Below are positions 4,643-44,400 of a DNA stretch of 64,000 bases, piece by piece. The DNA is taken from assembly GCA_008360975.2 (NCBI GenBank), contig VLJF02000033.1, forward strand, positions 3,162,001 through 3,226,000. Direction: 5' to 3'. The position numbers and the translations under genes are program-made. A model generated the notes under the pieces. It was not told the origin of the DNA. It searched no databases and saw only the letters and a list, made by a program, of their open reading frames with translations. The first letter of the stretch is position 1. Each line of letters begins with the position of its first letter. The DNA is from Lichenostomus cassidix. Taxonomy: Eukaryota > Chordata > Aves > Passeriformes > Meliphagidae.

Positions 4643-7600
4643 CTGCAGGGAAATGGGAAATTTGGGTCAAATTGGGGAAATTTGGGGAGATTTGGGGGAA
4701 TTTTGGGAAGTTTGGGGGAAATTTGGGTCAAATTTGGGGAGATTTGGGGGAAATTTGGGAGAAATTTGGGGAAAATTGGGGGAAATTTGGGGAATTTGGG
4801 AAAATTTTGGGAAATTTGGGTCAAATTTGAAATTGGGGGAAATTTGGGGGAATTTGGGGAGATTTGGGGGAAATTTGGGAGAAATTTGGGGAAATTTGGG
4901 GGAATTTCCTGAGAAAATAGTGGGGAAATTCCCTCCTGGAAGATCCCAGGAATTTCCAAAAAATTCCCCAAAAAATCGGTAAATAGTCCCCAAAAAAACC
5001 CCCAAAATGCCTCCAAAAAATTCCTAAATTATCCCCAAAAATCCCTTCCCAGAATCCCCAAAATTCCCCGAAAAATCTCAGATTTTCCCCCAAAAAATCC
5101 CTAAATTTTCCCAAAACCCCAAAATCCTCTTAAAAAGTCCCAAAATTCCCCTCAAAAACCCAAAATCCTCCCCAAAAAAATCTGCAAAAAATCCCAAAAT
5201 TGTCCTCAAAGAAATCCCAAAATTCCCAAAAAAAATCCCAAAAATCCCCCCAAGAATCCCAGAATTTCCCACAAAAAATCCCAAAATCCTCCCCAAAAAA
5301 ATTCCCCAAATCCCTCCCCCAACTCACCCCAAAATTCCCAAAATTTCCCAAAAACCTCCCCAAGAATCCCAAAATCCTCCATTAAAAAAAATCCCAAATT
5401 CCTCCCCAAAAATCCCAAATTCCACCTCCCAAAATTTCCCCAAAACTTCCCCAAAATTTCCCCAAAAAATTCCTCTCAACTCCCCCACCGGAACCTCCCA
5501 AAATCCCGCCGCACTTCCGGGTTCATTTCCTGGTCTTTCCCGGAAATTCCCGTGAAGAAACCACCGGAAGTGATGTCACAGATGCTCTGCAGCTCACTCC
5601 CACCCCTCCAGCCCCACTTCCGGGTCACTTCCGGGTTATACTGTGACACTTCCGGGTCACTTCCGGGGAATTCCCGTGAAATAACCACCGGAAGTGATGT
5701 CACAGCTGCGCCCCATCTCCCTCCCACCCTTCCACGCCCACTTCCGGGTGACTTCCGGCTCATTTCCGGCTAATTTCCGGGAAATTCCCGTTAAATAACC
5801 ACCGGAAGTGGCAGTCCAGATGGTCCCCACCTCCCTCCCACCCCTCCACACCCACTTCCGGGTTATCCTGTGACACTTCCGGCTAATTTCCGGGCAATTC
5901 CCGTGGAAGAACCACCGGAAGTGATGTCACACCTCCTCCCCAGCTCCCTCCCACCCCTCCACTCCCACTTCCGGGTGACTTCCGGGTTCATTTCCGGGTC
6001 ACTTCCGGGTCGCTCCCAGCTAATTTCCGGGCAATTTCCATGGAAGAACCACCGGAAGTGATGTCACACCTCCTCCCCAGCTCCCTCCCACTCCTCCACC
6101 CCCACTTCCGGGTGACTTCCGGGTTCATTTCCGGGTCATTTCCGGGTCGCTCCTGGCTCATTTCCGGGCAATTCCCGTGAAAGACCCACCGGAAGTGACA
6201 CCCCATCGCCTCCCCATCTCCTTCCCACCCTTCCACCCCCACTTCCGGGTCAATTCCGGGCAATTTCCAGGAAAATCTCATTAAAGAACCACCGGAAATG
6301 ATGTCACACCTCCTCCCCAGCTCCCTCCCACCCCTCCACCCCCACTTCCGGGTCATTTCCGGGTTCATTTCCGGGTCATTTCCGGGTCATTTCCGGGTTG
6401 GGTACCGTGAAGGCGCCGGCGGCAGTGGTGGTGTAGATGGTGTATTGCTTCTCGCTGACGTCGCGCAGGGCGGGGGAGGAGTCAGGGCCGGGGGGAGGAG
6501 CTTCCTCCAGCGCGATCCGCAGGGCCAGGTACTTGGACAGGTGATCCACCGTCGCGTTCGACGTCGTCTTCACGAACCTGGGGATAAAATAGAGATAAAA
6601 TCTAGATAAAATAACCAAAAATGGGACAAACAGGGACTTGGACAGGTGATCCACCGTCGCGTTCGACGTCGTCTTGACAAATCTGTGAGATAAAAACAGG
6701 GAAAAATGGGGAAATCAGCCCAAAATGGGATGGACAGGTACTTGGAGAGGTGATCCACCGTCGCGTTCGACGTCATCTTGACAAATCTATGGGATAAAAT
6801 AACCAAAAAATGGGGTGAATCCAGGGGGAAATGGGAAATTCAGGATAGCAGAAAAGTCTGGAAAAAATCTGGGAAAAATCGCAGAAAAATTAATGGAAAA
6901 ATGGCTGAGAAAATGGGATGAGCAGGGACTTGGAGAGGTGATCCACCGTGGGGTTGGAGGTGGTTTTAACGAACCTGCAGGGGGGAAAATAACCCAAAAA
7001 ATGGGGTGAATCCAGGGGGAAATGGGAAATTTGAGATAGGAAAAAAGTCTGGAAAAAATCTGGGAAAAAATCGCAGAAAATAATGGAAAAATGATGGAAA
7101 AATGGCTGAAAAAATGGGATAAACAGGGACTTGGAGAGGTGATCCACTGTGGGGTTGGAGGTGGTTTTGACAAATCTATAGGGGATAAAATAACCAAAAA
7201 TGGGGTGAATTCAGGGGGAAATGGGAAATTTGGGGATGGGAGAGAAGTGGGAAAAAATCTGGGAGAAAATCTGGGGAGAAAACATGGAAAAATGGGAAAA
7301 AATGGGGAAAAAAGCCCAAAAATGGGATGAACAGGGACTTGGAGAGCTGATCCACCGTGGCGTTGGAGGTGGTTTTGACAAATCTGGGGGGAAAAACAGG
7401 GAAAAATGGGGTGAATCCAGGGGGAAATGGGAAATTTGGGAATGAGGGAGATGTGGAAAAGTGTCTGAAAAAATCTGGGAAAAAATCTGGGGAAAATCCA
7501 TGGAAAAATGGCTGAAAAAATGGGAAAACCACTACAAAATTATAGGAGGAAAGGGGCTGGGAGTGACTGTGGGGTTCTGGGTGGTTTTGATGGAAATAAT

Positions 7601-10600
7601 ATGGAAAAATATGGAAAAAATTCATGGGAAATTGGATGAATCCATGGGAAAATGGGATGAATCCATGGAAAAACACCTGGAATGACACGGACCAGGAACT
7701 GGAAACGGAAATGCAACAGGAAGTGGAACTGAAACAAGAACTGAACAGGAAATGGAACAGGAGCAGGAAATGGGAATGGAATAGGAAATTGAACCTGAAA
7801 TGGAAGTAGAACTGGAAACGGAACAGGAAACGGAAACGGAAACGATGACAGGAAATGGAACTGGAATAGAAACAGGAAATGGAACTGGAATAGAAACAGG
7901 AAATGGAACAGGAAATGGAACAGGAAGCAAAGCCGGTAGTTTCCTCACTGTAGTGAGGAATAAGAGTAATAGTCTGGGAATATTCCCCTTTTTCCACCAG
8001 CAGGGGGTGTGGCCGGAAGGGGAAATGGAACAGGAAATGGAACACAAACAGGAAACAAACCCGGAAGTGAACCCGGAAGTGAACAGGAAATGGCACAGGA
8101 AGTCTCCTCACCGTGTCTGGCAGTACTGCCCTTTCTCCACCAGCAGGGGGTGTGGCCGGAAGGGGAACAGGAACCAGAAATGGAACAGGAAATGGAGCAG
8201 GAAGTGGAACACAAACAGGAAATAGACCCGGAAGTGACCCGGAAGTCTCCTCACCGTGTCTGGCAGTACTGCCCTTTCTCCACCAGCAGGGGGTGTGGCC
8301 GGAAGGGGAACAGGAACCAGAAATGGAACACAAACACCAATAGGAAGTGGAACAATGACAGGAAATAAACCCGGAAGTGAACCGGAAATGGCACAGGAAG
8401 TCTCCTCACCGTGTCTGGCAGTACTCTCCCTTCTCCACCAGCAGGGGGTGTGGCCGGAAGGGGAAGAGGAACAGGAAATGGAGCAGGAAATGGAGCAGGA
8501 AATGGAGCAGGAAGTGGAACACAAACCCGGAAATGAACCCGGAAGTGACCCGGAAGTCTCCTCACCGTGTCTGGCAGTACTCTCCCTTCTCCACCAGCAG
8601 GGGGTGTGGCCGGAAGGGGAAATGGAACAGGAAATGGAACAGAAACACAAACAGGAAGTGGAACACAAACAGGAAATAGACCCGGAAATGAACAGGAAAT
8701 GAACAGGAAGTGTCCTCACCGTGTCTGGCAGTACTCTCCCTTCTCCACCAGCAGGGGGTGTGGCCGGAAGGGGAACAGGAACAGGAAATGGAACAGGAAG
8801 TGGAACAGGAAGTGGAACACAAACCCGGAAATGAACCCGGAAGTGAACAGGAAATGAACCCGGAAATGACCCGGAAGTCTCCTCACCGTGTCTGGCAGTA
8901 CTCTCCCTTCTCCACCAGCAGGGGGTGTGGCCGGAAGGAGAACAGGAGCAGGAAATGGAGCAGGAAATGGAGCAGGAAATGGAGCAGGAAGTAGAACACA
9001 AACCCGGAAGTGAGCAGGAAATGGCACAGGAAGTGTCCTCACCGTGTCTGGCAGTACTCTCCCTTCTCCACCAGCAGGGGGTGTGGTCGGAAGACGAGCT
9101 CGATCTCGCTGCTGGCCACTTCCTGCTCTGTCTCGGGGCTGCCCCTCCCCCCCGGCCCCGCCCCGTCAGGCCCCGCCCCCTCGGGCTCGGGCTCGGCGCC
9201 GGAGTCGTCGGAGGCGCGGGAGCGTTTGCGGCTCGGTCCCGCCGCGGGGTCGGCGGCGCTGCCAACGCTGCCCAGAGCCTCCAGAGCTTCCTCGGCGCCG
9301 CTCAGGGCGGACGGGTCCGACTCGGCCGCCAGCTTGCGGACGCGCTGGGCTCTGGGGAGGGAAACGGGAAAATTGAATAAAAATTGGGATTTGGGGGAAA
9401 AATATTGGGATTGGGGGGAAAAAACAGGAAAAAAAAGGAGTTTTGGAGTGAAAAAATGGAGTTTTTAGGTGAAAAAATGGGATTTTTAAGGGAAAAAATG
9501 GGATTTTTAAGGGAAAAAAATGTGGTTTTTAAGTGAAAAAATGGAATTTTCAGGGGAAAAAATGGAGTTTTTAGGGGAAAAACTGGGAAAAATTGGGATT
9601 TTTAAAGGGAAAAAAGGGATTTTTAAGGGAATAAATGCTCTGGGGGGAAAAAGGGGAAAATGGGAAAATTTGAATAAAACTGGGGGAAATATTGGGATTT
9701 GGAGTGAAAAAATGGAGCTTTCAGGGGAAAAAACGGGGAAATAATGGGATTTTTAAGTGAAAAAATTGGATTTTTAGGGGAAAAAATGAGGTTTTGGAGT
9801 GAAAAAATGGAGTTTTTAAGGGAAAAAATGGGATTTTTAAAGGGAAAAAAGGGATTTTTAAGGAAATCCCCAGAGCTTCCTCGGCGCCGCTGAGAGCAGA
9901 GGGTGTGACTCGGCTGCCAGCTTGCGGACGCGCTGAGCTCTGGAAATGGGGAGAAAATGGGAAAAAATGGGGTTTTTAGTGAAAAAATGGAGTTTGTGGG
10001 GGAAAAAGAGCATTTTAGAAAAAATAATGGGGAAAATATGAGATTTTTAAGTGGAAAAAACGGGGGTTGTAAGGGAAAAAAGTTGGTTTTGCATGATTTC
10101 CACCCCAAAATTCCCAAAAAACCCCAAAAATCTCTAAATTCCCCCCAAACCTGTGCATGGCCTGCAGCCTGAATGGAGAATTTGTAATATTTGAGTGGAT
10201 TTGGGGAGAAATTGTGGGATTTGAAGCAGTTTTGGATGAGATTTTGGGGAGAATTTGTGGGATTTGGTGCGGTTTTTGATGGGATTTGGGGAGAATTTGG
10301 GGGATTTTGTGGGGATTTTGTGAGATTTGTGGGATTTTCAGTGATTTGGGAACAACCAGGGAAATTATTGAAGGGATTTTAGATTTTTTTTCAGTTTTTC
10401 AATGCGATTTTTGTTGAATTTAATGCGATTTTCACCCCGTTTTTTGCACCATTCCCACCCCAAAACTCTCAAAATCCCCCAAAAACCCCAAAACCCCCCA
10501 AACCTGTGCATGGCCTGCAGCCTGAATGGGGAATTTGTAAGATTTGAGTGGATTTGGGGAGAATTTGTGGGATTTGAGGCAAATTTTTTATGGGATTTTA

Positions 10601-13600
10601 GGGAGAATTTCTGGGATTTGGTGCAGATTTTGATGGGATTCTTGAGGATTTTGGGGGAATTTGTGGGAAATCTCTAGGATTTAGGGGAATTAGTGGGACT
10701 TATGGGATCTTCAGTGATTTGGGAACAACTGAGGAAATTTCTGAGGGAATTTTACAGATATTTTGCAGCTTTTCAATGCCATTCTAGGTGAATTTAAAGC
10801 AATTTTCACCCCGTTTTTTTCACCATTCCCACCCCGAAACCCCCAAAATTCCCAAAATTTCCCGAATTCTCCCCAAACCTGTGCATGGCCTGCATCTTGA
10901 GCCCCTCCTCGATGCTGGAGCTGAGCGCCTGCTGGTTGTGGAGGCGACTGAGCTTGGCGAGGACTCTGTCCTGGTGAGCTTCGTACTCGTCGCGGGAGGG
11001 ATAGATCTTGGAGATGAGCGCGTCGAAGTTGGGGTCGGGGCGGAGAGAGCGCTTGGAAACCAGCTTCTTACGGCATGTGGGACACTCCTTGTTCCTGAAA
11101 AATATGGGAAAAATGGGATTTAACCCCAAAAAATGGGAATTTGGGATCAGAGAGTCGAAATTGGGGTCGGGGCGGAGAGAGCGCTTGGAGAGCAGCTTCT
11201 TACGGCATGTGGGACACTCCTTGTTCCTGAAAAAACATGGAATTATTGGGATTTAATGGGAAAAATGGGAATTTGGGATCAGAGAGCCGAAATTGGGGTC
11301 GGGGCACAGAGAGCACTTGGAGAGCAGCTTCTTACGGCATGTGGGACACTCCTTGTTCCTGGGAAAAACCCAAAAATATGGGATTTAACCCCAAAAAAAT
11401 GGGAATTTGGGATCAGAGAGTCGAAGTTGGGGTCGGGGCGCAGAGAGCGCTTGGAAACAGCTTCTTACGGCACGTGGGACACTCCTTGTTCCTGGAAATA
11501 ACCCCAAAATATGGGAATTTGGGATCAGAGAGTTGAAATTGGGGTCAGGGCGGAGAGAGCGCTTGGAGAGCAGCTTCTTACGGCATGTGGGACACTCCTT
11601 GTTCCTGGGAATAACCCAAAAATATGGGATTTAACCCCAAAAAATGGGAATTAATGGGATCAGAGAGTCGAAATTGGGGTTGGGGCGGAGAGAGCGCTTG
11701 GAGAGCAGCTTCTTACGGCATGTGGGACACTCCTTGTTCCTGGAAAAAACCCAAAAATATGGGAATTTGGGATCAGGAAATGGGAATTTGGGATCAGAGA
11801 GTCGAAATTGGGGTCGGGGCGGAGAGAGCGCTTGGAAACCAGCTTCTTACGGCATGTGGGACACTCCTTGTTCCTGGAAAAACATGGAATTATTGGGATT
11901 TAACCCCAAAAAATGGGAATTTGGGATCAGAGAGTCAAAATTGGGGTCGGGGCGGAGAGAGCGCTTGGAAACAGCTTCTTACGGCATGTGGGACACTCCT
12001 TGTTCCTGGAAAATATGGGATTATTGGGATTTAACCCCAAAAAATGGGAATTTGGGATCAGGAAATGTGGAATGATTGAGATTAGAGAGTCAAAATTGGG
12101 GTCAGGGTGGAGAGAGCGCTTGGAGAGCAGCTTCTTACGGCATGTGGGACACTCCTTGTTCCTGGAAAATCATGGAATTATTGGGATTTAACCCCAAAAT
12201 ATGGGAACTGGGGATCAGACAGTCGAAATTGGGGTCGGGGCGGAGAGAGCGCTTGGAAACCAGCTTCTTACGGCATGTGGGACACTCCTTGTTCCTGGAA
12301 AATATGGAAAATATGGGAAAAACCATGGAAAAATGGGAATTAATGGGATCAGAGAGTCGAAATTGGGGTCAGGGCGGAGAGAGCGCTTGGAGACCAACTT
12401 CTTACGGCATGTGGGACACTCCTTGTTCCTGAAAAAACATGGAATTATTGGGATTTAATGGGATTTAATGGGAAAAATGGGAATTTGGGATCAGAGAGTC
12501 GCAGTTGGGGTCGGGGCGGAGAGAGCGCTTGGAGAGCAGCTTCTTACGGCATGTGGGACACTCCTTGTTCCTGGAAATAACCCAAAAATATGGGAATTTG
12601 GGATGGGAAATGGGAAAAAATGGGAATTTGGGATCAGAGAGTTGAAATTGGGGTTGGGGCGGAGAGAGCGCTTGGAGAGCAGCTTCTTACGGCATGTGGG
12701 ACACTCCTTGTTCCTGGAAATAACCCAAAAATATGGGATTTAACCCCAAAAAATGGGAATTTGGGATCAGGAAATGGGTTTTTTTTTTGGGAAAAAACCC
12801 AAAAATTATGGGATTTAACGGGAAAAAATCAGGATTTTGGCAAAGGAAATGGAAATTGGGAAACGGGGAATGGAATTAGGGGCAGGAAATGGACAGATCT
12901 TGGAGATCAGAGAGTTGAAATTGTTCCTGGGAAAAATGGGAAAAATCGGGAATTTTCGGGATGGGAAATGGGAATTGGGAAATGGGGACAGGGAAAGGAC
13001 ACTGAGGTGACACTGAGGTGACACTGAGGTGACAATGACAATGACACACAGGTGACACAGGGAGGTGACAGAGGTTACACAGGTGACACACAGGTGACAG
13101 AGGTGACACAGAGGTTGTACAGGTGACACTGAGATGACACTGAGATGATACAGGTGACACACAGGTGACAATGACAACGATAATGACACACAGGTGACAA
13201 TGACACTCAGCCACTCCTCAATGAGGTGACAATGCAATCAGAGCCGAATCAATGCAGGGACAGGTGACACTGAGGTGACACAGGTGATGATGACACACAG
13301 GTGACAGAGACGAGACAGGTGACACAGAGAGGTTACAGAGGTTATACCGGTGACACACAGGTGACAATGACAATGACACACAGGTGACAATGACACACAG
13401 GTGACAATGACAATGACAACGACAACAGCACTGAGGTGACAATGACAATGACACACAGGTGACAATGACACACAGGCGACAATGACAATGACAATGACAA
13501 CAGCACTGAGGTGACAATGACAATGACACACAGGTGACAATGACACACAGGTGACACTGAGGTGACAATGACAATGACAGTGTCACTCACCCGCTCCTCA

Positions 13601-16600
13601 GCGTGGTGACAATGCAGTCAGAGCAGAACCAGTGCAGGGACAGGTGACACACAGCTGACACACAGGTGACAATGACAGTGACAATGACAATGACACACAG
13701 GTGACACACAGGTGACATCACTCACCCACTCCTCAGCGCGGTGACAATGCAGTTGGAGCAGAGGTGATGCAGGGACAGGAGTGGGACAGGTGACATACAG
13801 GTGACAATGACAATGCCAATGACACACAGCTGACACACAGGTGACACACAGGTGACAATGACAATGACAGTGTCACTCACCCGCTCCTCAGTGCGGTGAC
13901 AATGCAGTCAGAGCAGAGCCGATGCAGAGATAGGAGTGGGACAGGTGACAATGACAGTGACACACAGGTGACACACAGGTGACAATGACAGGTGACAATG
14001 ACAATGACAGTGTCACTCACCCGCTCCTCAGTGCGGTGACAATGCAGTCGGAGCAGAGGTGATGCAGGGACAGGAGTGGGACAGGTGACAATGAGGTGAC
14101 ACACACGTGACGACAGTGACACACAGGTGACACTGAGGTGACAATGACAATGACAGTGTCACTCACCCGCTCCTAAGCGCGGTGACAATGCAGTCAGAGC
14201 AGAACCAGTGCAGGGACAGGTGACAATGAGGTGACACAGGTGACAATGACAGGACAATGACAATGACACATAGGTGACACTGAGGTGACAATGACAATGT
14301 CACTCACCTGCTCCTAAGCGCGGTGACAGTGCAGTCAGAACAGAACCAGTGCAGGGACAGGTGACACACAGGTGACAATGAAGTGACACACAGGTGACAA
14401 TGACAATGACAGTGTCACTCACCCGCTCCTGAGTGCGGTGACGATACAATCGGAGCAGAACCAATGCAGGGACAGGTGACACACAGGTGACAATGACAGT
14501 GACAATGACAATGACACACAGGTGACATCACTCACCCACTCAGCGCGGTGACAATGCAGTCAGAGCAGAGGTGATGCAGGGACAGGTGACAATGAGGTGA
14601 TACACAGGTGACAGTGACACACAGGTGACAATGACAGTGACACAGGTGACATTGACAATGACACACAGGTGACACTGAGGTGACAATGACAGTGTCACTC
14701 ACCCGCTCCTGAGCGCGGTGACAATGCAGTCGGAGCAGAATCAATGCAGGGCAGGAGGGACACAAGGAGGTGACACAGGTGACAATGACAGGACAATGAC
14801 ACACAGGTGACAATGACAATGACAGTGTCACTCACCCGCTGCGGAGCGCGGTGACGATGCAGTCGGAGCAGAACCTGTGCAGACACTCCTTGGTGGTCAT
14901 CGTGTTCTTCAGCATGTCCAGGCAGATGGGACACATCAGCTCCGAGTGCAGTGACCGCGGGGACACTGCTATCTCTGTCCCGTCCATGATGGCCTCCTGG
15001 GGACAGAGTGACATCAGAGTGACACAGTGTCCATGGGGACACATCAGCTCCGAGTGCAGTGACCGCGGGGACACCGCGATCTCCGTGCCATCCATGATGG
15101 CCTCCTGGGGACAGAGTGACATCATGGGGTCAGTGACACCATGGGGACATCCCTGACACACCATGGGGACACATGAGCTCCAAGTGCAGTGACCGCAGGG
15201 ACACCGCGATCTCTGTCCCATCCATGATGGCCTCCTGGGGACACACAGTGACATTGGGGACACATGAGCTCCGAGTGCAGTGACCGCGGGGACACCGCGA
15301 TCTCCGTCCTGTCCATGATGGCCTCCTGGGGACACACAGTGACACTGGGGTCAGTGACACCCCTAGGGACACATCAGCTCTGAGTGCAGTGACCGCGGGG
15401 ACACCGCGATCTCCGTCCCGTCCATGATGGCCTCCTGGGGACATTGGGCACAGGGACTGGGGACACCCTGGGCACACAGCCAGGGACGCTCCTGGGGTGT
15501 CCATCCAAAACTGCCCCGAAACAGCACAAATTCTCCACAAAATCCCACCCAAAACTACCACGAAGACCAGAAATCATCTCCTAAATCCCACCAAAAACTG
15601 CCCCAAAAATCCCACAAATTTTCCACAGAATTGCATCAGAAATTGTCACAAACATCAGAAATTCAGCCCAAAATCCCATCAAAAACTGCCCCAAACCCCA
15701 CAGATTCCCCCCAGTTCTGAGCTCCTCAATTTTGGGGTTTTCCCCAACAAATTCCCAATTTTTGGGTGTTTCCCCCAGTTTCGGTGTCTCCCTCCCCAAT
15801 TTTGGGGTGTTTCTCCCCAATTTCAGGATGTTTCTCCCCAATTTCAGGGTTTTCCCCCTCAGATTCCCAATTTCTGGGTGTTTCCCCCAGTTTCGGTGTC
15901 TCCCTCCCCAATTTAAGGCTGTCTCTCCCCAATTTCGGGATGTTTCTCCCCAATTTCAGTGTGTCTCTCCCCAGTTTCAGGGTTTTCCCCCCCCAAACCC
16001 GAAATTTTGGGATGTTTCTCCCCAATTTTGGGGTGTTTCCCACCCAATTTCAGGATTTCTCCCCCAAATTCCCAATCCCAGGCTGTTTTTCCCCAATTCC
16101 AGCCTGTTTTTCCCAATTCCAGCCTGTTTTTCCCAATTCCAGCCTGTCTCTCCCCAATTCCAGGCAGTTTTCCCCAATTCCAGGCAGTTTTTCCCCAATC
16201 CCAGGCAGTTTTTCCCCAATCCCAGGCTGTTTTTCCCCAATCCCAGGCTGTTTTTCCCCAATTCCAGGCTGTTTTTCCCAATTCCAGGCTGTCTCTCCCC
16301 AATTCCAGGCAGTTTTCCCCAATTCCAGGCAGTTTTTCCCCAATCCCAGGCAGTTTTTCCCCAATCCCAGGCAGTTTTTCCCCAATCCCAGGCTGTTTTT
16401 CCCCAATCCCAGGCTGTTTTTCCCCAATTCCAGGCTGTCTCTCCCCAATTCCAGGCTGTCTCTCCCCAATTCCAGGCTGTCTCTCCCCAATTCCAGCCTG
16501 TTTTCCCCAATTCCATGATGTCTCTCCCCAATTCCATGATGTCTCTCCCCAATTCCAGGCTGTCTCTCCCCAATTCCAGGCAGTTTTCCCCCAAATTTCT

Positions 16601-16791: not shown

Positions 16792-18917
16792 CTGGGGAAC
16801 CCAAAAATCAGCCTTTCAGCCCAAAAATCACCCCTGGAACCCCAAAAATCACCCTTGGAATCCCCAAATTCCCCTCAGAATTCCCAAATTCCCCTCAGGA
16901 ACCCCACATTTCCCTCAAAAACCCCAAATTCCCCTCAGAAACGCAAATTCCCTCAGAATTCCCACATTCCCCGCACGATCCCCAAATCCTCCCCGGAACC
17001 CCAAATTCCCCTCAGAAACCCCAAATTCTCCTCAAAAACCCCAAATTTCCCCTCTGGATCCGCAAATTCCCCTCAAAACCCCAAAATTCCCCTCAGAACC
17101 CCAAAATTACCTCAATTTCTCCTCAGAAACCCCAAAATTGGCCTCAGGATCCCCAAATTCCCCTCAGGAATCCCCAAATTTCCCTCAGAAACCCCAAAAT
17201 TGGCCTCAGGATCCCAAATTCCCCTCAGAATTCCCAAATTCCCCTCAGGAATCCCCAAAGTTCCCCTCAAAAACCCCAAATTTCCCTCAGAACCTCAAAT
17301 TTCCCCCTCAAAAACCCCAAATTCCCCTCCGGATCCCAAAATTTGCCTCCGAACTCAAAAATTCCCCTCAGAAACCCCAAAATTTCTCCCTGGATCCCCA
17401 AATTGCTCTCAGAAACCCCAAATTCCTCTCAGAATCCCCAAAATTCCCCTCAGAATTCCAAAATTTCCCCTCAGAAACCCAAAATTCCCTTCAGAATTCC
17501 TAAATTCCCCTCAGGATACCCAAAATTCCCCTCAGAACCCCAAATCTCCCTCAGAAATCCCAAAATTCCTCTCAGAAACCCCAAATTTCCCTCAGAACCT
17601 CAAATATTCCCTCAAAACCCCCAAATTCCCCTCAGGATCCCAAAATTCCCCTCAGAAATCCCAAATTCCCCTCCGGATCCCTGGATTCCCCTCAGAACTC
17701 AAAAATTCCCCTCAGAAACCCCAAAATTCCCCTCAGGATCCTCAAATTCCCCTCAAAAACCCTAAATTCCCTTCCGGAATCCCAAATTTCCCCTCAGGAT
17801 CCCCAAATTTCCCTCAGAACCTCAAATATTCCCTCAAAAACCCCAAATTCCCCTCAGAACTCAAAAATTCCCCTCAGAAACCCCAAAATTCGCCTCAGAA
17901 ATCCCAAAATTCCCCTCAGGATCCTCAAATTCCACTCAAAACCCCCACATTTCCCTCGAAACCCCAAAAATTACCCTCAGAAGCCGCAAAATTCCTCTCG
18001 AAACCCCAAAATTCCCCCCCGGAACCCCAAATTCCCCTCAGAATTCCTAAATTCCTTCCCGGAACCCCAAAATTCGCCTCAGAAACGCCAAATTCGCCTC
18101 AGAAACCCCAAAATTCCCCTCAGAACCCCAAATTCCTCTCAAAACCCTAAATTCCCCTCCGGATCCCCAAAATTCCCTCAGAATCCCCAAATTCCCCTCC
18201 GGATCCCAAAACTTCCCCTCAGAAACCCCAAATTCCCCTCAGGAACCCCAAATTCCCATCAAAACCCCCAAAATTCCCCTCCGGATCCCCAAAATTCCCT
18301 CAGAATCCCCAAATTCCCCTCCGGATCCCAAAACTTCCCCTCAGAAACCCCAAAATCCCCTCAGGACTCCCAAAATTCCCCTCCGGATCCCAAAATTCCT
18401 CTCAAAAACCCCAAATTCCCCTCAAAACCCCCAAAATTCCTCTCAGGGTCCCCAAAATTCCCCTCAAAAACCTCAAATTCCCCTCAGAACCCCAAATTCC
18501 CCTCAGAAACTCCAAATTCCCCTCAGGATCCCGAAATTCCCCTCAGGATCCCCAAAATTCCTCTCAAAACCCCAAATTCCCCTCGGGATCCCAAAATCCC
18601 TCCCCGAAACCGCAAATCTCCCCTCCGAATCCCCAAATTCCCCTCAGAAACCCCACATTTTCCCTCAGAATTCCCAAATTTTCCCTCAAAACCCCAAAAT
18701 TCCCCTCAGAACTCAAAATTCCCCTCAGGGATCCCCAAATCCTCCCCGGAACCGCAAATTTCCCCTCCGGAACCCCAAATTTCTCTCAAAACCCCAAAAT
18801 CCCCCTCCGGATCCCCAAATTCCCCTCAGAAACCCCAAATTCGCCTCCGGATCCCCAAATTCCCCTCAGAAACCCCAAATTTTCCCTCAAAAACCCAAAT
18901 TCTCTTCTCCCCCTCAC
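16792..18917 (-). repeat. RING1 intron 1: CCCCTCAGAAACCCCAAATT minisatellite
   Basis: The whole intron is an approximately 20-22 bp array of CCCCTCAGAAACCCCAAATT and CTCCGGATCCCCAAATT variants on the plus strand. The transcribed strand is therefore G-rich. No other exon or element is visible. Confidence 0.88.
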
Positions 18918-18990
18918 CCGCCCGAGCCGCGCGCCGCCGTCGCTTCCGGGTGGCGCCGCCTGATTACGTCACCGCGCGTCGGCCAATGGG
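18918..18990 (-). other. RING1: RING1 non-coding first exon (5' UTR), 5' end approximate
   Basis: A minus-strand donor, CTCGGGCGG|GTGAGGGG, lies at 18918/18917 within a CpG island, and the next acceptor is at 16792. This fits a leader exon spliced to the ATG exon. The upstream end is a guess because no transcript evidence is available. The exon contains a CCGGAAGCG ETS-like site typical of TATA-less start regions. Confidence 0.65.
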
Positions 18991-19270
18991 AGGCGCGGCT
19001 GGGTTCGGCCAATAGGCTCTCTTTGTGGGCGTGGTTATGTAAATTAGGCACAGCTCTGTCCATAAATGGCGATTCGGGGCGTGGTTATGCAGATGAGGCT
19101 CGAGCTGACCATTTTTAGTGTGTTGAAGGGCGTGGTTATGTAAATAAGATGGGCGTGGTTATGTAAAAGAGCCACAGCGGTGTGGCGCGAAATCGGGAGG
19201 GGCGTGGCCTTGTCCTTATATGGGTGTGAATGGGCGTGGCTTGGGAAGGGAGCGTGGTCTCTGCCGGCGG
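18940..19270 (-). promoter_or_regulatory. RING1: RING1 CpG-island promoter
   Basis: There is no TATA box at a suitable place. Visible motifs are an ETS core (CTTCCGG, 18943-18949), a CRE-like TTACGTCA (18964-18971) and two CCAAT boxes (18983-18987 and 19009-19013, inverted relative to RING1). Six GGGCGTGG KLF/Sp-type boxes lie at 19027, 19077, 19128, 19151, 19200 and 19232. Four of the boxes continue as GTTATG(T/C)A. A perfect CArg box, CCTTATATGG, lies at 19214-19223. Motif names are from general knowledge; binding is not shown. Confidence 0.75.
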
Positions 19271-19281
19271 GCGGGAAAGAG

Positions 19282-20045
19282 CGGAGAGAGAGACCAGTTC
19301 ATCCCAGTTCGTCCCAGTTTGTTCATCCCAGTCCATCCCAGTCCCTCCCAGTCCATCCCAGTCCTCCTAAAATTCCCTCCCAGTGCTCCCAGTCCCTCCC
19401 AGTTCCATCCCAGTCCATCCCAGTTTGTCCATCCCACTCCCTCCCAGTCCCTCCCAGTCCCTCCCAGTTGCTCCCAGTCCATCCCAGTCCCTCCCAGTCC
19501 CTCCCAGTTGCTCCCAGTCCATCCCAGTCCCTCCCAGTGCTCCTAAAATTCCCTCCCAGTGCTCCCAGTCCCTCCCAGTTCCCCCCAAGATCCCTGTCAA
19601 TCATTCCCAGTTCCTCCCAGTCCCTCCCAGTTTATTTCCAGTCCCTCCCAGTGCCCCCAAGTTGCCTGTCAGACCATCCCAGTCCATCCCAGTTCATCCC
19701 AGTATCCTCCCAGTACCTACAAAGTTCCCTCCCAGTCCCTCCCAGTCCCTCCCAGTCCCTCCCAGTCCCTCCCAGTCCATCCCAGTCCATCCCAGTCCAT
19801 CCCAGTTCCCTCCCAGTCCATCCCAGTTCCCTCCCAGTCCATCCCAGTCCATCCCAGTCCCTCCCAGTCCATCCCAGTCCCTCCCAGTCCCTCCCAGTTC
19901 CCTCCCAGTCCATCCCAGTCCATCCCAGTCCATCCCAGTCCATCCCAGTCCCTCCCAGTCCCTCCCAGTCCCTCCCAGTTCCCTCCCAGTCCATCCCAGT
20001 CCATCCCAGTCCCTCCCAGTCCCTCCCAGTTCCCTCCCAGTGTCC
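19282..20045. repeat. Intergenic 10-bp minisatellite (TCCCAGTCCA/C)n
   Basis: This is a nearly perfect array of CCCAGTCCCT and CCCAGTCCAT units, with occasional CCCAGTGCTCC and AAAATTCCCT insertions, about 75 units. Stop-free frames give Ser/Pro/Val-rich hypothetical proteins that I do not accept as genes. Confidence 0.92.
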
Positions 20046-23341: not shown

Positions 23342-23476
23342 TCACCCCGAGCAGCAGAGGGGGCCGAGCTCCAGCTGGGAATTCCGCGGGAATTTGGGGA
23401 ATTTGGGGAATTCCTGGATTGGGAATTGCTCCGGGCGGGAAGAGCGAAGCTCCAGCAGGCGCCGGCCGGAGCTGCC
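23342..23476 (-). CDS. COL11A2: COL11A2 terminal coding exon
   Basis: It encodes 44 residues and TGA (23344-23342). It starts [20 protein letters not shown] and ends [11 protein letters not shown], matching the family pattern ending in G-P-x-C-F/C-x-G. The middle, [13 protein letters not shown], is written by GAATTCCCCAAATTCCCC, the same text as neighbouring intron and UTR repeats. The acceptor is GCCCCAG. Confidence 0.88.
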   Translation of the reverse strand, partial: GSSGRRLLELRSSRPEQFPIQEFPKFPKFPRNSQLELGPLCCSG

Positions 23477-26400
23477 CTGGGGCTGGAAAAATGGGGAAAA
23501 AATCGGGAATTTTGGGGATTTTTAGGGAGTTTGGGGTGATGAATCCTGAAATTTGGTTTGCCACCCCGAAATTCCCACTTTTCCTACCCGAAATTCCCAA
23601 TTTTCACACCCCGAAATCCCCAAAATCCCTTTTCCCACCCCGAAATTCCCACTTTTCCCACCCGAAATCCCGAAATTTCCCAATTTTCCCACCCCAAATC
23701 ACCCAAAATTCCCACTTTTACCATCCCTGAATTTCCTAAAATGACTTTTTCCACCCCAAATCCCACAAATTCCCATTTTCCCACCCGAAATCACTCAAAA
23801 ATCCTTTTCCCACCCCAAAATTCCCACTTTTCCAACCCCAAATTCCTAATTTTTCTGCCCCAAGTCCCCAAAAATCCGACTTTCCCCACCCCGAAATCCC
23901 CAAAATTCCCAATTTTTTCATCCCAAATCCCCAAAAATCCAACTTTTCCCACCCTGAAATCCCCAAAATTCCCACTTTTTCCACCCCAAATCACCCAAAA
24001 TTCCCAATTTTCCCATCCCAAATTCCCCAAAATTCCCACTTTCCACACCCCAAATCCCCAAATTTCCCTTTTCCCGCCCCTAATTCCCACTTTTCCCACT
24101 CAAAATTCCCACTTTTCCCATTCCAATTCCCAAAATTCCCATTTTTTTCATCCCAAATCCCCAAAATTGCCAATTTTCCCACCCCAAATCCTGAAATTTC
24201 CCACTTTTTCCACCCCAAAGTTCCCAAAAATCCCTTTTCCCACTCCAAATTCCCACTTTTCCCACCCCAATTCCCCAAATTCCCACTTCCTCCACCCAAA
24301 ATTCCCATTTTCCCACCCCAAAATTCTCCCAAATTCCCACTTTTTCCACCCCAAATCCCCAAAATTCCCACTTTTCCCACCCCAAATCCCCACTTTTTCC
24401 ACCCAAAATCCCCAGTTTTCGCACCCCAAATCACCCCAAAATTCCTTTTCCCACCCCAAATCCCAAAATTCCCACTTTTTCCACCCCAAAACCCCAAAAA
24501 TTCCTTTTCCCACCCCAAATTCCCATTTTCCCACCCCAAAATCCTTTTTCCCCACCCCAAATTCCCACTTTCCCATGCAAAATCCCCAAAATTCCCATTT
24601 TATCACCCCAAAATTCCCAAAAATCCCTTTTCTTGCCCCCCAAATTCCCATTTTCCCAACCCAAATCCTGAAATTTCCCACTTTTCCCACCCTCTCCATC
24701 CCAAATTCCCACTTTTCCCATCCCAAAATCCCCAAATTCCCACTTTCTGCACCCCAAATTCCCACTTTTCCCACCCAAAAATCCCCAAATTCCCACTTTT
24801 CCCATCGCAATTCCCCAAATTCCCACTTTCTCCACCCCAAATTCCCACTTTTCCCACTCTGAAATTCTCAAAATTTCCACTTTTCCCACCCCAAATTTCC
24901 GAAACTTCCCTTTCCCCATACCAAATTCCCATTTTCCCACCCCAAATCCCAAAATTTCCCACTTTTCTCACCCCAAATTCCTCCAGAATTCCCTTTTCCC
25001 ACCCCAAATTCCCACTTTTCCCACCCAAAATTCCCTTTTTCCCACCCAAATCTCCCCAAATTCCCTTTTCCCATCCCCAAATCCCCAAATTTCCCACCTT
25101 TCCCACCCAAAATTCCCATTTCCCCCCCCAAAATTCCCTTTTCCCACCCAAAATTTTCCACTTTTCCCACCCCAAAACCAAAATTCCCATTTTCCCACCC
25201 AAATCCCAAAATCCCCATTTTCCCACCCAAAATTCCCATTTTCCCACCCCAAAATTCCCCAAAATCCCTTTTCCCACCCCAAAATTCCTTTTCCCACCCT
25301 GAAATCCCCAATTTCCCATTTTCCCAAATCCCCAGAATTCCCATTTTCCCATCCAAAAATTCTCCCAAATCCTTTTCCCCCGAAAATCCCCAGAAATTCC
25401 CATTTTCCCACCCCAAAATTCCCAAAAATCCCTTTTCCCACCCCAAATTCCCATTTTCCCACCCTAAAGTTCCCAAATTCCCACCTTTCCCACCCAAGAT
25501 TCCCTTTTCTCACCCCAAAATTCCCATTTCTCACCCCAAAATTCCCATTTTCCCACCCTAAAGTTCCCAAATTCCCACCTTTCCCACCCAAAATTCCCAT
25601 TTTCCCACTCAAAATTCCCATTTTCCCACCCAAAATCGCCAAATTCCCACCCCAAAATCCCAAAATCGCCAAATTCCCACCCCAAAATCCCAAAATCCCC
25701 ATTTTCCCACCCAAAATCCCCCACCTTTCCCACCCAAAATTCCCATTTTCCCACCCAAAATCCCAAAATCCCCATTTTTTTCTCCACCCACCCCACATCC
25801 ATCCTCGAGTATCCGGAAGTTCTCCTCTCCCAGCTCCTCCTCGTTCGCTCCCAGGAACCGCAGGGAACCCCCGGAATTTTGGGAATTTTGGGAACTTTGG
25901 GAATTTTGGGAATTTTGGGAGTTTTTGGGGTGATTTTGGGGGTTTTGGGGGGCGCAGGGCAGAGCCAGGCGCTGCCGGCAGGTGGCGCTGAGGAGCCGCA
26001 GGAACTTCAGCTGAACCACCGAGAGAGGCTGGGAGGGAAAATGGGGAGAAAATGGGAAAAAATGGTGAATTTTGGGGAGAAAAAATACTGAAATTATTGT
26101 GAAAAAATGGGGGGGAAATGGGGGGAAAATGGGGAAAGGGCTGGGAGAGAAAATGGGGAGAAAAAGGGAAAAAACGGGAAAAATATGGTTAAAAATAGTG
26201 AATTTTGGGGAGAAAAAAATGGGAAATTATTGTGGGAAAATGGGGAAAGGGCTGGGAGAGAGAAAGTGGGGAGAAAAAGGGAAAAAATGGGAAAAAACGG
26301 GGAAAAATGGTGAGAAAAAATAGTGAAATTATTGTGAAAAAATGGGGGGGAAATGGGGAAAAAAAGGGAAAAAAAGGGAAAAAAAGGGAAAAAAGGTGAA

Positions 26401-32400: not shown

Positions 32401-35400
32401 ATTTTGGGTTAAATTTAGGGAATTTCAGACCTGTGGGATGTCGGGGAAGATGCAGCTCTCTCCTCCGGCTGTGAAATTGCAGAAAACTTGGAAAGAATCT
32501 CTGGAGCAACCCTGGTTGGGATCGATCCAATAGTCACCTGGAAAACACAAAAAATTATTGAAAAATCCCAAAAAATCCTGAAAAAACCTGAAAAATCCCC
32601 AAAAAATCCCCTAAAGAATCTCTGGAGCAACCCTGGTTGGGATCAATCCAATAGTCACCTGGAAAATACCAAATTTTAGCCCAAAAATTTAAAAAAAATT
32701 CCCCAAAAAATCCCAAAAAATTTCCCAAAAATCCTGAAAAAATCCCCTAAAGAATCTCTGGAACAGCCCTGGTTGGGATCGATCCAGTAGTCACCTGGAA
32801 AATAACAAAAAATCCTGAAAATCCAAAAAAAAATCCTGAAAAATCCTGGAAAAAACCAAATTTTAACCCAAAAAAACCCAAAAATCCCGAAAAAAATCCC
32901 CTAAAGAATCTCTGGAGCAACCCTGGTTGGGATCGATCCAATAGTCACCTGGAAAATACCAAATTTCAGCCAAAAAATTAAAAAAAAATTCCCCAAAAAA
33001 TCCCAAAAAATTTCCCAAAAATCCTGAAAAAATCCCATAAAGAATCTCTGGTTGGGATCGATCCAATAGGAACCTGGAAAATAACAAATTTCAGCCAAAA
33101 AACCCCCAAAATTTCTGAAAAAATCCCAGAAAGAATTCCTGAAAAAACCCAAAAATCCCGAAAAAATCCCATAAAGAATCTCTGGAGCAACCCTGGTTGG
33201 GATCGATCCAGTAGTCACCTGGAAAATAACAAAAATTATTGAAAAATCCCAAAAAATCCTGAAAAAATCCTGAAAAATCCCCAAAAAAATCCCCTAAAGA
33301 ATCTCTGGAGCAACCCTGGTTGGGATCAATCCAATAGTCACCTGGAAAATACCAAATTTTAGCCCAAAAATTCCCAAAAAATCCCAAAAAATTTCCCAAA
33401 AATCCTGAAAAAATCCCCTAAAGAATCTCTGGAACAGCCCTGGTTGGGATCGATCCAATAGTCACCTGGAAAATAACAAAAAATCCTGAAAATCCAAAAA
33501 AAAATCCTGAAAAATCCTGGAAAAAACCAAATTTTAACCCAAAAAAACCCAAAAATCCTGAAAAAATCCCCTAAAGAATCTCTGGAGCAACCCTGGTTGG
33601 GATCGATCCAATAGTCACCTGGAAAAGACCAAAAATTATTGAAAAATCCCAAAAAATCCTGAAAAAACCTGAAAAATCCCCAAAAAAATCCCCTAAAGAA
33701 TCTCTGGAGCAACCCTGGTTGGGATCGATCCAATAGTCACCTGGAAAATAACAAATTTTAGCCAAAAAATTCCCAAAAAATCCTGAAAAATTCCTGAAAA
33801 ATCCCAGAAAGAATTCCTGGTTGGGATCAGTCCAATAGTCACCTGGAAAAAACCCAAAATCAGCCCAAAAATTCCCAAAATCTAAAACCAAAAAACAAAC
33901 AAACCAAAAAAAAAAAAAATCCCCCAAAAAATCCCAAAAATTCCTGAAAAAAAAATCCCAAAACATCCCAAAAAAAATCCCCAAAAAATCTCCCAAAAAA
34001 TCCAAAAAAATCCCAAAATTTCCCCCAATTCCCAAAAAATCCCCAAAAATAAAAAAAACCCAAAAAAATCCCAAAAATTCCAAGAAATCCCCAAAAAATC
34101 CCAAAAAATCCCCCAAAAATCCCAAAAATTCCCCCAAAAATCCTAAAAAACCCCAAAATCCCAAAAATTCCTGAAAAAATCTAAAAAACCCCAAAAAAAT
34201 CCCAAAAATTCCGAAAAAAATCTAAAAAAAAAAAAAAATCCCCAAAAATCCCCAAAATCCCCAAAATCCCCCAAAAATCCCCCAAAATCCCCCAAAAATG
34301 CCAAAAATTCCCCAAAAATCCAAGGAATTTTTTAAAAATCCCAAAAAATCCCAAAAATTCCCCAAAAAATTTTAAAAACCAAAAAATCCCAAATTTTTCC
34401 CCCAAAAATCTCAAAAATTCCAAAAAAAATCCCAAAAAATCCCCAAAAAATCCCCAAAAATTCTCCCAAAAAAATCCGAAAAATTCCCCCAACAATTCCC
34501 AAAAAAATCCCCAAAAGTAAAAAAAAATCCCAAAAAATCCGAAAAAATCCCAAAAATTCAAAAAAAAATTTTTAAAAAATCCCAAAAATTCTCGAAAAAA
34601 ATCCTAAAAAATCCCCCAAAAAATCCCAAAAATCCTCAAAAAATCCTCAAAAATTGCCAAAAATTCCCCAAAATCCCAAAACCCCCCCAAAATTCCCCAA
34701 AATCCCCTAAAACCCCACAGACCGTCGGGCAGCTCGGGGTGGGCGAGGTGCAGGTCCTGGCAGGTCCTGGCAGGGAATTCCCGACTTCCCGGCGGGTTCC
34801 GGAGCTGCTCCACCTCGGATTTTAGGGAATTCAGGGAGCCAAGGAGAGCCTGGGAGCGATCCCGAAATTCCTGGGAATTCCCAAATTTCTCAGCCTCAAA
34901 TTCTTCAGAATTCCCAAATTTTTCATCCTGGAATTCCCGGGAATTCCCGAATTTCTGAGCCTCAAATTGCCGGGAATTCCCGAATTTTTCATCCTGGAAT
35001 TCCTGGGAATTCCTGAATTTCTCATCCTCGAATTCCTGATGATTCCCGAAATCCTCAGCCTGGAATTCCCGAGAATTCCTAAATTTCTGATCTTCAAATT
35101 CCGGATGATTCCTGAATTTTTCGTCTCCGAATTCCTTGTGATTCCCGAATTCTTGATCCTGGAATTCTTCATGATTCCCAAATTTTTCGTCTCCGAATTC
35201 CTCAAGATTCCTGAATTTCTTGTCCTGGAATTCTCCAAGATTCCCGAATTTCTGATCCTGGAATTCCCGACGATTCCCGAATTCCTGATCTCCGAATTCC
35301 CGTCGATTCCCAAATTTCTGATCTCCGAATTCCCGTCGATTCCCGGATTTCCCGTCGAGGGATCGTTTGGATTTTTTGGGAATTTGGAGAGGCAGAGGTT

Positions 35401-41400: not shown

Positions 41401-44400
41401 AATTTCCCCAAAATCCCCAAAAATCCACCCAAAAGCCCTTTTTCCCCCAAAAAATCCCATTTTTCCCACCCCAAATCCCATTTTTTCCCAAAAAAATCCC
41501 ATTTTTCCCACCTGAAATCCCAATTTTTTTCCCCAAAAATCCCTTTTTTTCCCCACAAATTCCCCCAAAATCCTGTTTTTCCCACCCCAAATCCCATTTT
41601 TCCCCCCAAAAGTCCCATTTTTCCCCAAAAAATCCCTTATTTTCCCCCAAATCCCATTTTCCCCAAAAATCCCATTTTTCCCCACAAATTCCCCCAAATT
41701 CCCATTTTCCCCACCCCAAATCCCATTTTTTTTAGGATTTTTCCCCCCAAAATCCCATTTTTCCCACCCCAAATCCCATTTTTTTCCCCAAAAAATTCCA
41801 TTTTTTCCCCAAAAATCCCATTTTTCCCCACAAATTTCCCCCAAAATTCCCATTTTCCACCCCAAATCCCATTTTTTTTTAGGATTTTTCTCCCCAAAAT
41901 CCCATTTTTTGAGGATTTTTTCCCCCAAATCCCCTTTATTTCCCCAAATCCCATTTTTTCCCCCAAATCCCAATTTCTCTGGGATTTTTTTCCCTCCAAA
42001 ATCCCATTTTTTGGGAGGATTTTTTTCCCCAAAAATCCCATTTTTCCCCCAAATTCCCCCAAATCCCATTTTCCAACCCAAAATCCCAATTTTTTAGAAT
42101 ATTTTTCCCCCAAATCCCATTTTTTGGGTGATTTTTTTCTCCCCAAACCCATTTTTTTCCTCTCAAAACCTAATTTCTCTGCGATTTTTTCCCCCCAAAT
42201 TCCAATTTTTTCCCCAAAATTTAATTTTTTTCCCACCCAAAATACCATTTTCCTCCCCCAAATCCCATTTTTTTGGTTTTTTTCCCAAAATCCCATTTTT
42301 TCCCCACAAATCCCATTTTCCAAAAAAACTCTCTTTGCTTTTTTTGTGATTTTTTCCTCCCAAATCCCTATTTTTTGCCATTTTTTCTCCCCAAAATCCC
42401 TTTTTTTTGAGGATTTTCCCCCAAAATACATAATTTTAAAAACTTTTTTCCCAAAATCCCACTTTTTCTCCCCAACTGCTCACCGTCTCTCCCTTGTTCC
42501 CGGTTTTTCCAGGAATTCCAGGTCTCCCTCTGTCCCCTTTGTCCCCAAAAATCCCATTTTTCCTCCCAAAAATCCCATTTTTTTAGGTTTTTTCCCCAAA
42601 ATCCCATTTTTTTAGGTTTTTTTCCCAAAATCCCATTTTTTCTCCCCAATTTCTCACCGTCTCTCCCTTGTTCCCGGTTTTTCCGGGAATTCCAGGTCTC
42701 CCTCTGTCCCCTTTGTCCCCTTGCTCCCCAGGAGGTCCAATCAGCCCAATGAGCCCGGGGTGGCCCTGGGGGGAAAATGGGGGAAAATTGGGAAAAATGG
42801 GGAAAAATGGGAAAAAATGGGGAAAAATGGGGAAAATGGGGAAAATGGGAAAATGGGGAAATGGGGAAAATGGGGGAAAATGGGGAAAAATGGGAAAATT
42901 AGGGAAAATTGGGGAAAATGGGGGAAAATGGGAAAATGGGAAAATTGGGGAAAAATGAGGAAATTGGGAAAAATGGGAAAAATGGGGAAAAGGGGATTTT
43001 TGGGGGAAAAATGAGGAAATTGGGAAAAATGGGAGAAAATGGGAAAATGGGGAAAATGGGGAAAATGGGGAAAATGGGGAAAAATGGGGAAAATGGGAAA
43101 AATGGGGAAATGGGGATTTTGGGGGAAAAATGGGGAAAATTGGGGAAATTGGAAAAATTGGGAAAATGGGGAAAAATGGGGGAAAATGGGAAAATGGGGG
43201 AAAATGGGAAAAATGGGGAAATTGGAAAAATTGGGGAAAAAAGGGGAAAATGGGAAAGATGGGAAAGATGGGGAAGATGGGGAAAAATTGGGGAAATTGG
43301 GGAAAATGGGATTTGGGGGGAAAATTGGAAAATGGGAAAAATATGGGAAAAATGGGGAAATTGGGGAATTGGGGAAAATGGGAGAAAATGGGGAAATTGG
43401 GAAAAATGGGGAAAATTGTGAAAAAATGGGGAAATGGGATGTGGAGGTAAATGGGGAAAAATGGGATTTGGGGAAAAATGGGAAAAAAGGGGGGAAATGG
43501 GGAAAACGGGAATTTGGGGGCCGAAAAGGGGATTTTGGGAATTCCAGGTGGAATTTTTAAAATTCCCAGTGGAATTTTGGGAAATCCCAGTGAAATTTTG
43601 GGAATTCTGTCAGAATTTTGGGAATTCCATCAGGATTTTGGGAATTCCTGAGGGAATTTTGTCGGAATTTTGGGAATTCCAGCAGAATTTTGGGAATTCC
43701 CAGAGGGAATTTTGGGAATTCCGTCAGGACTTTGGGAATTCTGGGTGGAATTTCGTCAGAATTTTGGGAATTCCCAGAGGGAATTTTGGCAATTCCATCA
43801 GGATTTCGGGAATTCCCGAGGGAATTTTTGGGAATTCCCAGAGGGAATTTTTTTTATTCCCCATGGAATTTTGGGAATTCTGTCAGGATTTTGGGAATTC
43901 TGTGGGAATTTAGGGAATTCCATGGGGATTTTTGGGAATTCCCAGAGGGAGTTTTTAAAATTCCCCATGAAATTTTGGGAATTCTGGGTGAAATTTTGGG
44001 AATTCTGTGGGAATTTTGTCAGAATTTTGGGAATTCTGGGTGAAATTTTGGGAATTCCCGGTGGAATTTTGGGAATTCCCGGTGGAATTTTGGGAATTCC
44101 GTGGGAATTTCGGGAATTCCCATCCCGACTCACCTTCTCCCCCTTGGCTCCCGAGTCTCCCTTCAGCCCTGGAATTCCTGGAGGTCCCTGAGGAGTTCGG
44201 GAAGAAATTTGGGATCCCAAAATTTGGGATTCTTGTTTTTTTGGGATTCCCAATTTTCGGGATTCCCATTTTTTGGGATTCCTCATTTTCCAGGATCACA
44301 GTTTTTTGGGATTCCCATTTTTTTGATAATTTTTTTTTTTAATCCCATTTTTTTGGAATTCCCCTTTTTTGGGATTCTCTTTTTTTTTTTTTTTGGGATT

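Follow-up and report, generated by a model that had tools for sequence, protein, structure and literature searches.

Exon stuttering was described in chicken in February 2026 by Hron et al. (PMC12954441), who reported 1,345 hits in 236 introns of 115 genes. In these expansions, a lateral part of an exon is copied together with its splice donor or acceptor site, with a median of 4 copies per expansion. More than 90% of the source sequences lie within 1 base of an exon border, which is a typical property and not a strict criterion. Most of the introns (190/236) are on dot chromosomes, and length differs between chickens in 95% (183/192) of the exon-stuttering introns measured. Local expansions are mentioned in other birds, and stuttering in gerbils is mentioned as data not shown. 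On the mechanism the authors can only speculate, with gene conversion as one possible route of length change (PMC12954441). We analyzed a 64,000-nucleotide window of Lichenostomus cassidix DNA (contig VLJF02000033.1 of assembly GCA_008360975.2, positions 3,162,001 to 3,226,000), for which a previous reading of the letters alone, here called the original prediction, had noted copies of exon edges across a RING1 gene. That observation is confirmed. At seven of the ten RING1 exon edges, tandem units composed of exon edge, splice site and intronic spacer occupy the adjoining intron, and the exons themselves are intact.

Exon-edge copies in RING1

The RING1 gene is intact on the minus strand, and comprises six coding exons (E1 to E6; exons 2-5 of the original prediction are E2-E5). 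Its coding sequence of 1,038 nucleotides (nt) specifies 345 amino acids plus a stop codon and has no internal stop. All five introns between the coding exons are GT-AG introns, and four of them carry edge copies, 41 in total (Table 1). Copies were sought by approximate matching of edge probes within each intron, by using 24 exon and 6 intron bases for donors, and 6 intron and 30 exon bases for acceptors. The probes yield 39 matches: 4 at the E2 acceptor, 10 at the E2 donor, 12 at the E3 acceptor, 2 at the E3 donor, 1 at the E4 acceptor, 6 at the E4 donor and 4 at the E5 acceptor. This matching of the introns gave nothing at the E1 donor, E5 donor or E6 acceptor. Two weaker copies, a degenerate one found by BLASTN (7971, E4 donor) and one found by tblastn (7179, E5 acceptor), raise the counts at their edges to 7 and 5. 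The farthest E2 donor copy (13211) is detected by tblastn, and its edit distance of 9 is no better than the best of 10 shuffles. The resulting counts match the predicted ones at every edge. Similarly, the claim that AG or GT is kept in almost every copy holds: 39 of the 41 copies retain the splice dinucleotide (AG in 22/22 acceptor copies and GT in 17/19 donor copies), and the GT is lost in 13211 and 7971.

Table 1. Exons and exon-edge copies of RING1 and COL11A2, in positions of the window
Feature	Positions	Strand	Remarks
RING1 coding exon E1	16787-16710	-	Start codon to donor; donor without edge copies found
RING1 coding exon E2	14996-14836	-	
RING1 coding exon E3	11094-10879	-	
RING1 coding exon E4	9351-9043	-	
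RING1 coding exon E5	6577-6406	-	
RING1 coding exon E6	4642-4541	-	Last coding exon, with stop; without edge copies found
E2 acceptor edge copies	15036..15435	-	4 copies, 69 exon nt each, upstream of E2
E2 donor edge copies	13205..14749	-	10 copies, about 30-47 exon nt; farthest (13211) degenerate, without GT
E3 acceptor edge copies	11154..12713	-	12 copies, 66-73 exon nt, 91.5-98.6% exon identity
E3 donor edge copies	10145..10526	-	2 copies, about 20 exon nt, period of 374 base pairs
E4 acceptor edge copy	9870..9939	-	1 copy
E4 donor edge copies	7965..8937	-	7 copies, 51 exon nt; farthest degenerate, donor lost
E5 acceptor edge copies	6631..7383	-	5 copies; in the three farther ones, nearly all differences from the exon are at third codon positions
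COL11A2 C-propeptide exon	32431..32537	-	Acceptor edge stuttered
Acceptor edge copies of that exon	32623..33846	-	10 copies, AG in 10/10; 33846 and 33073 with shortened exon part
Donor edge copy of COL11A2 exon 42765-42658	42484..42546	-	1 copy, 63 nt, 98.4%

The published screen for exon stuttering (blastn-short, matches of at least 20 nt and at least 42.1 bits) was run with the same strand searched. Thirty of 38 RING1 matches pass it, with scores of 42.1-137 bits, and all 30 lie in the adjacent intron. As a control, matches of at least 20 nt in 20 mononucleotide-shuffled versions of the introns score 16.4 bits at best. The aligned units cross the exon border at all seven RING1 edges, and some raw BLASTN matches at the E2 donor, E4 acceptor and E5 acceptor end 4-12 nt inside the border through mismatches. 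The observation is qualified by its surroundings, because the copies sit in DNA that is itself mostly tandem repeat. Tandem repeats make up 89% of the window (Tandem Repeats Finder, score 40), and simple repeats cover 82-95% of each of the five RING1 introns.

Judged by its sequence, the locus is assignable to exon stuttering: it has matches in the adjacent intron that pass the BLASTN threshold, an unaltered coding exon and introns rich in simple repeats. As in the published cases, the copies of edge and splice site are direct and tandem, the units are imperfect and measure tens to hundreds of bases, and several introns of one gene are affected (PMC12954441). RING1 is an extreme member of the class, with four of five introns and seven of ten edges involved. 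The published account concerns chicken genes, and its main text does not name RING1. The original prediction that the pattern has no named class is therefore outdated, and in the literature searched the names "exon stuttering", "sequence stuttering" and "stuttering intron" trace only to Hron et al. The same paper defines intronic stuttering (PMC12954441), whose units contain no exon sequence, unlike those of the RING1 edge arrays; other arrays in the window, such as 5626-6260 in RING1 intron 5, showed no exon sequence and resemble it. The array at 5626-6398 in this intron is built of a CACTTCCGGGT motif in higher-order units of 113-137 base pairs (bp), with no exon sequence detected.

Codon positions of variants among the copies

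Variation among the copies was sorted by codon position in the six arrays that have four or more copies, of which five are in RING1 and one is in the neighboring gene COL11A2; the E3 donor (2 copies) and the E4 acceptor (1 copy) are left out. A variant is termed shared when each of two bases occurs in at least two copies, and a singleton when it occurs in one copy only and not in the exon. Shared variants fall on codon positions 1, 2 and 3 in the ratio 7:5:31 (p=5e-7), in contrast to 13:13:11 for singletons (p=0.89). If the four degenerate copies (13211, 7971, 33846 and 33073) are dropped, these ratios become 7:1:25 and 7:7:10. The contrast between shared and singleton variants has p=0.0003 with all copies and p=0.013 without the degenerate ones. 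Silent and replacing changes are divided 29:14 among shared variants versus 12:23 among singletons (p=0.006, or p=0.05 without degenerate copies). Sites at which the copies have a majority base other than that of the exon are distributed 3:1:20 over the three codon positions.

The excess at third positions persists within non-CpG G/C sites, CpG sites and A/T sites (Mantel-Haenszel odds ratio 7.1, p=1.4e-9; the shared counts here take in every copy, and also single copies matching the exon). Base composition or decay of CpG as the cause of the pattern is thus rejected. Differences between exon and copies were also counted over seven arrays, with the E3 donor array left out, the degenerate copies omitted, and 2-6 distal exon columns trimmed in four arrays. 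They number 44/822, 10/819 and 141/827 at positions 1, 2 and 3, so that the ratio of position 3 to positions 1 and 2 together, in differences per site, is 5.2. A ratio of at most about 2 is expected if decoys (the copied splice sites with their exon parts), once they have left the exon, change at the same rate as silent exon sites. One copy drawn at random from each of the seven arrays gives a median p of 0.0006 and a 95th percentile of 0.012. As far as our searches go, covering the main text of Hron et al. and the literature searched, this third-position signature has not been described before. The words "codon" and "synonymous" occur 0 times in that main text, which does not discuss a codon-position pattern (PMC12954441).

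In the E5 acceptor copies at 6974-7383, most silent departures from the exon exchange C and G at third positions. Changes between C and G account for 11/29 exon-versus-majority differences, 11/32 shared variants and 3/29 singletons in the seven arrays.

Because singletons are spread evenly, recent changes appear to ignore codon position, as in untranslated DNA. The concentration of shared variants at position 3 implies that the older changes mostly arose in translated DNA. The copies are not strictly constrained, since a frameshifting 1-nt deletion is common to E3 acceptor copies 12005 and 11491, and an in-frame TGA is common to two E2 donor copies. The flat single-copy mutations, together with the shared frameshift and stop, indicate that the outer copies are not read as protein. 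Because the shared variation carries a coding signature, the copy lineages nonetheless seem to have passed through the translated exon more than once.

These observations probably reflect exon stuttering on what is likely a bird dot-type microchromosome, in which edge-spanning duplications survive and copies are repeatedly drawn from working exons. Local tandem duplications would arise throughout such repeat-saturated DNA, and those inside or across coding exons would mostly be purged by selection. Duplications that span one edge could survive, because the unit that adjoins the rest of the exon still supplies a correct splice site, and the outer units would remain in the intron. Most simply, the coding signature might then come from working exon sequence that was copied again and again and that exchanged with the copies. 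A likeness is provided by the Prdm9 zinc-finger array, a coding minisatellite under concerted evolution, whose tandem units exchange while selection acts on coding content. All units of that array are translated, whereas in RING1 only the unit joined to the exon is.

It is very improbable that each array was founded once from its exon and has since been neutral intronic DNA that copies only itself. Copies do copy one another, as the deletion common to 12005 and 11491 attests. However, a single founding predicts that shared variants are flat, which the observed 7:5:31 contradicts, and its simulation places a fraction of 0.33 at position 3. That simulation (two settings) was one of the models with one source, which were run 150 times per setting over a limited set of settings and also comprised serial seeding from the exon (nine settings) and seeding combined with return to the exon under a protein-identity filter (13 settings). 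That exchange with the exon alone accounts for the excess is rejected, because the 13 settings with return give ratios of only 1.4-2.2.

A narrower form of the preferred explanation, and not its opposite, is that the arrays were recently seeded from several divergent coding versions of the exons, either old haplotypes of RING1, as a gene linked to the major histocompatibility complex (MHC), or a second RING1, via unequal exchange between homologues or paralogues. This is possible, although we regard it with some doubt. The ratio of 5.2 exceeds the expected value of about 2, single random copies still give a median p of 0.0006, and RING1 and COL11A2 belong to one block of the MHC region in the duck (PMC10845735). 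In addition, a toy model in which recent copies derive from 2-4 divergent exon versions (five settings, 400 runs each) comes close to the data. It places 0.65-0.73 of shared variants and 0.37-0.45 of singletons at position 3, with ratios of 4.0-5.9, and the observed values are 0.76, 0.42 and 5.2 with degenerate copies dropped (the two fractions are 0.72 and 0.30 with all copies). However, the toy model was supplied with the coding alleles it needs, and divergent alleles or a second RING1 locus are assumed, with none seen in the window. Moreover, the farther E5 copies show 7-10 third-position differences in a 47-nt stretch, which is very deep for alleles. Alternately, a faster silent rate in the exon is a cause compatible with the data.

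A tentative extension, which we think less likely than not, is that the arrays are a reservoir of working exon edges, with units that derive from a number of divergent coding exon versions and still exchange with the exon. The introns might then be a fossil record of silent alleles screened by selection, and could return alternative silent versions to the exon.

Exchange between units is pointed to by four-gamete combinations, which occur in five of the six arrays. The copy nearest to the exon tends to be the closest in sequence at the E4 donor (rho 0.83) and the E5 acceptor (rho 0.90); the trend with distance is not significant in the other four arrays (rho -0.63, 0.41, -0.05 and -0.45).

Several points weigh against the explanation that we prefer. 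Four-gamete patterns can instead arise by recurrent mutation, and an age gradient with the nearest copy youngest is rejected (permutation p=0.19 over six arrays). In the simulated models with one source, the fraction of shared variants at position 3 does not exceed 0.62 and the ratio does not exceed 2.2, compared with the observed 0.76 and 5.2. Stuttering is not uniform, in that 18 COL11A2 collagen exons (two of which are duplicates) screened on both sides have one stuttered edge. Finally, although the host sequence is most likely a bird dot-type microchromosome, we infer this from the repeat texture, the gene neighborhood and the findings of Hron et al.

We consider it highly unlikely that the arrays are artefacts of assembly, in which units were multiplied or mis-polished in a region that is hard to sequence. 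Problem sequences of this kind are known (PMC12954441), some of the singletons could be assembly errors, and a gap of 500 Ns (61550-62049) between twin pairs of collagen exons marks a possible false duplication. However, assembly errors would hardly create ordered differences among copies at third codon positions, and raw nanopore reads confirmed a comparable structure in chicken PHF8 (PMC12954441).

The contrast between shared and singleton variants distinguishes arrays with a single founding from arrays whose copies were repeatedly taken from the exon. It can be applied to the 1,345 published chicken hits, which makes the question of mechanism testable. If units rotate through the coding position or derive from divergent exon alleles, the introns of dot chromosomes record, and possibly drive, the evolution of silent sites in exons.

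Unit geometry and decoy splice sites

The original prediction noted two features, a splice site in every unit and a real exon that is the last unit in all cases. Both are observed. However, a duplicated segment that has one end in the exon and the other in the intron necessarily carries a splice site in each unit, and leaves one unit joined to the exon. No further cause is needed. In the three introns with both kinds of copies, the donor copies are 5' of the acceptor copies. Therefore, a decoy acceptor never has a decoy donor downstream of it, and the copies do not form a complete pseudo-exon.

It was also proposed that units bearing splice sites are selected. We see little likelihood that the decoys are functional, for example as regulators of splicing or as alternative exon edges. 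In favor of function, the dinucleotides are almost always intact, including in all ten COL11A2 acceptor copies. Compared with the real gene, 100/102 dinucleotide bases match, versus 1,373/1,530 in the adjacent 30 exon nt (p=0.003). Minor alleles affect 2/96 dinucleotide bases versus 61/432 in the adjacent 9 intron nt (p=0.0004), and three of the 22 acceptor decoys (15326, 11226 and 6682) would extend the exon in frame without a stop. However, the comparison with the real gene takes in silent changes of the real exon. When copies are instead compared with their own majority, minor alleles occur at 2/96 splice-dinucleotide bases and at 75/1,435 of the adjacent 30 exon bases (p=0.23), so the dinucleotides vary no less than their neighbors, and selection on the decoy splice sites gains no support. 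The other 19 acceptor decoys would give a frameshift or a stop. All 17 donor decoys tested, of 19 (13211 and 7971 were left out), run into a stop; for E2 and E4 this stop is the first complete codon of the intron, and for E3 it lies 23 codons on. The spacing between copies and the real edge is not a multiple of three in any consistent way, which, like the flat singletons and the 1-nt deletion in two E3 acceptor copies, argues against function. For annotation, the locus is a trap, with some 40 decoy splice sites in authentic exon context within one gene.

The suggestion that expansion starts at exon-intron borders fares better in RING1 than elsewhere. After merging, seven of the ten RING1 arrays with units of at least 80 bp carry exon-edge sequence (six of nine, if the two E2 acceptor arrays are taken as one), whereas random placement of non-disrupting units predicts about 6-15%. 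Border-spanning units are thus over-represented among the long-unit arrays of RING1, perhaps through a detection bias. An exon edge is identifiable in only 2 of the 24 arrays with such units in the rest of the window, and the collagen exons add just the single edge noted above. Short-period slippage may conceal long units that lack complex exon sequence, which weighs against hot spots at borders.

Short direct repeats occur near some of the copied segments. A GTGTCCC lies where the copied part of E2 ends, and another directly upstream of the outermost acceptor copy of this exon. A CTTCC lies where the copied part of E4 begins, and another past the E4 donor. Slippage at these repeats is only a lead, and the occurrences are uncontrolled.

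COL11A2 and the gene neighborhood

The RING1 product contains RING and RAWUL domains and is strongly similar to RING2 chains in PDB. The gene is named RING1 and not RING2 because COL11A2 is its neighbor and because of sequence differences. COL11A2 and RING1 are on the same strand. The start codon in E1 is preceded by an acceptor-like CCCCAG that ends 4 bases before it. Farther upstream, the segment at 18903-19296 is free of tandem repeats and G+C-rich with CpGs, and is perhaps a promoter or a 5' untranslated exon.

In the duck, the two genes belong to a single block in the MHC region, in the order COL11A2-RXRB-SLC39A7-HSD17B8-RING1 (PMC10845735). RXRB, SLC39A7 and HSD17B8 were not noticed between 16.8 and 23.3 kilobases of the window, where only the G+C-rich stretches were translated, so their absence is unproven.

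Two adjacent collagen exons occur twice with identical peptides (60383-60688 and 63137-63439), on either side of the 500-N gap. The twin pairs may reflect a local duplication or else an assembly that falsely doubled the segment. A search by tblastn did not recover the COL11A2 exon expected between 32431 and 26028. The very last COL11A2 exon is recognized only at a tblastn expectation value of 0.017. The last two recognizable C-propeptide exons of COL11A2 (23345-23464 and 25789-26028, minus strand) contain in-frame AAATTCCC-type repeats, which are QNS-like and FPK-like. Hron et al. found no repeat block running into an exon (PMC12954441); at these two COL11A2 exons, it is as if an intronic repeat had entered the coding sequence.

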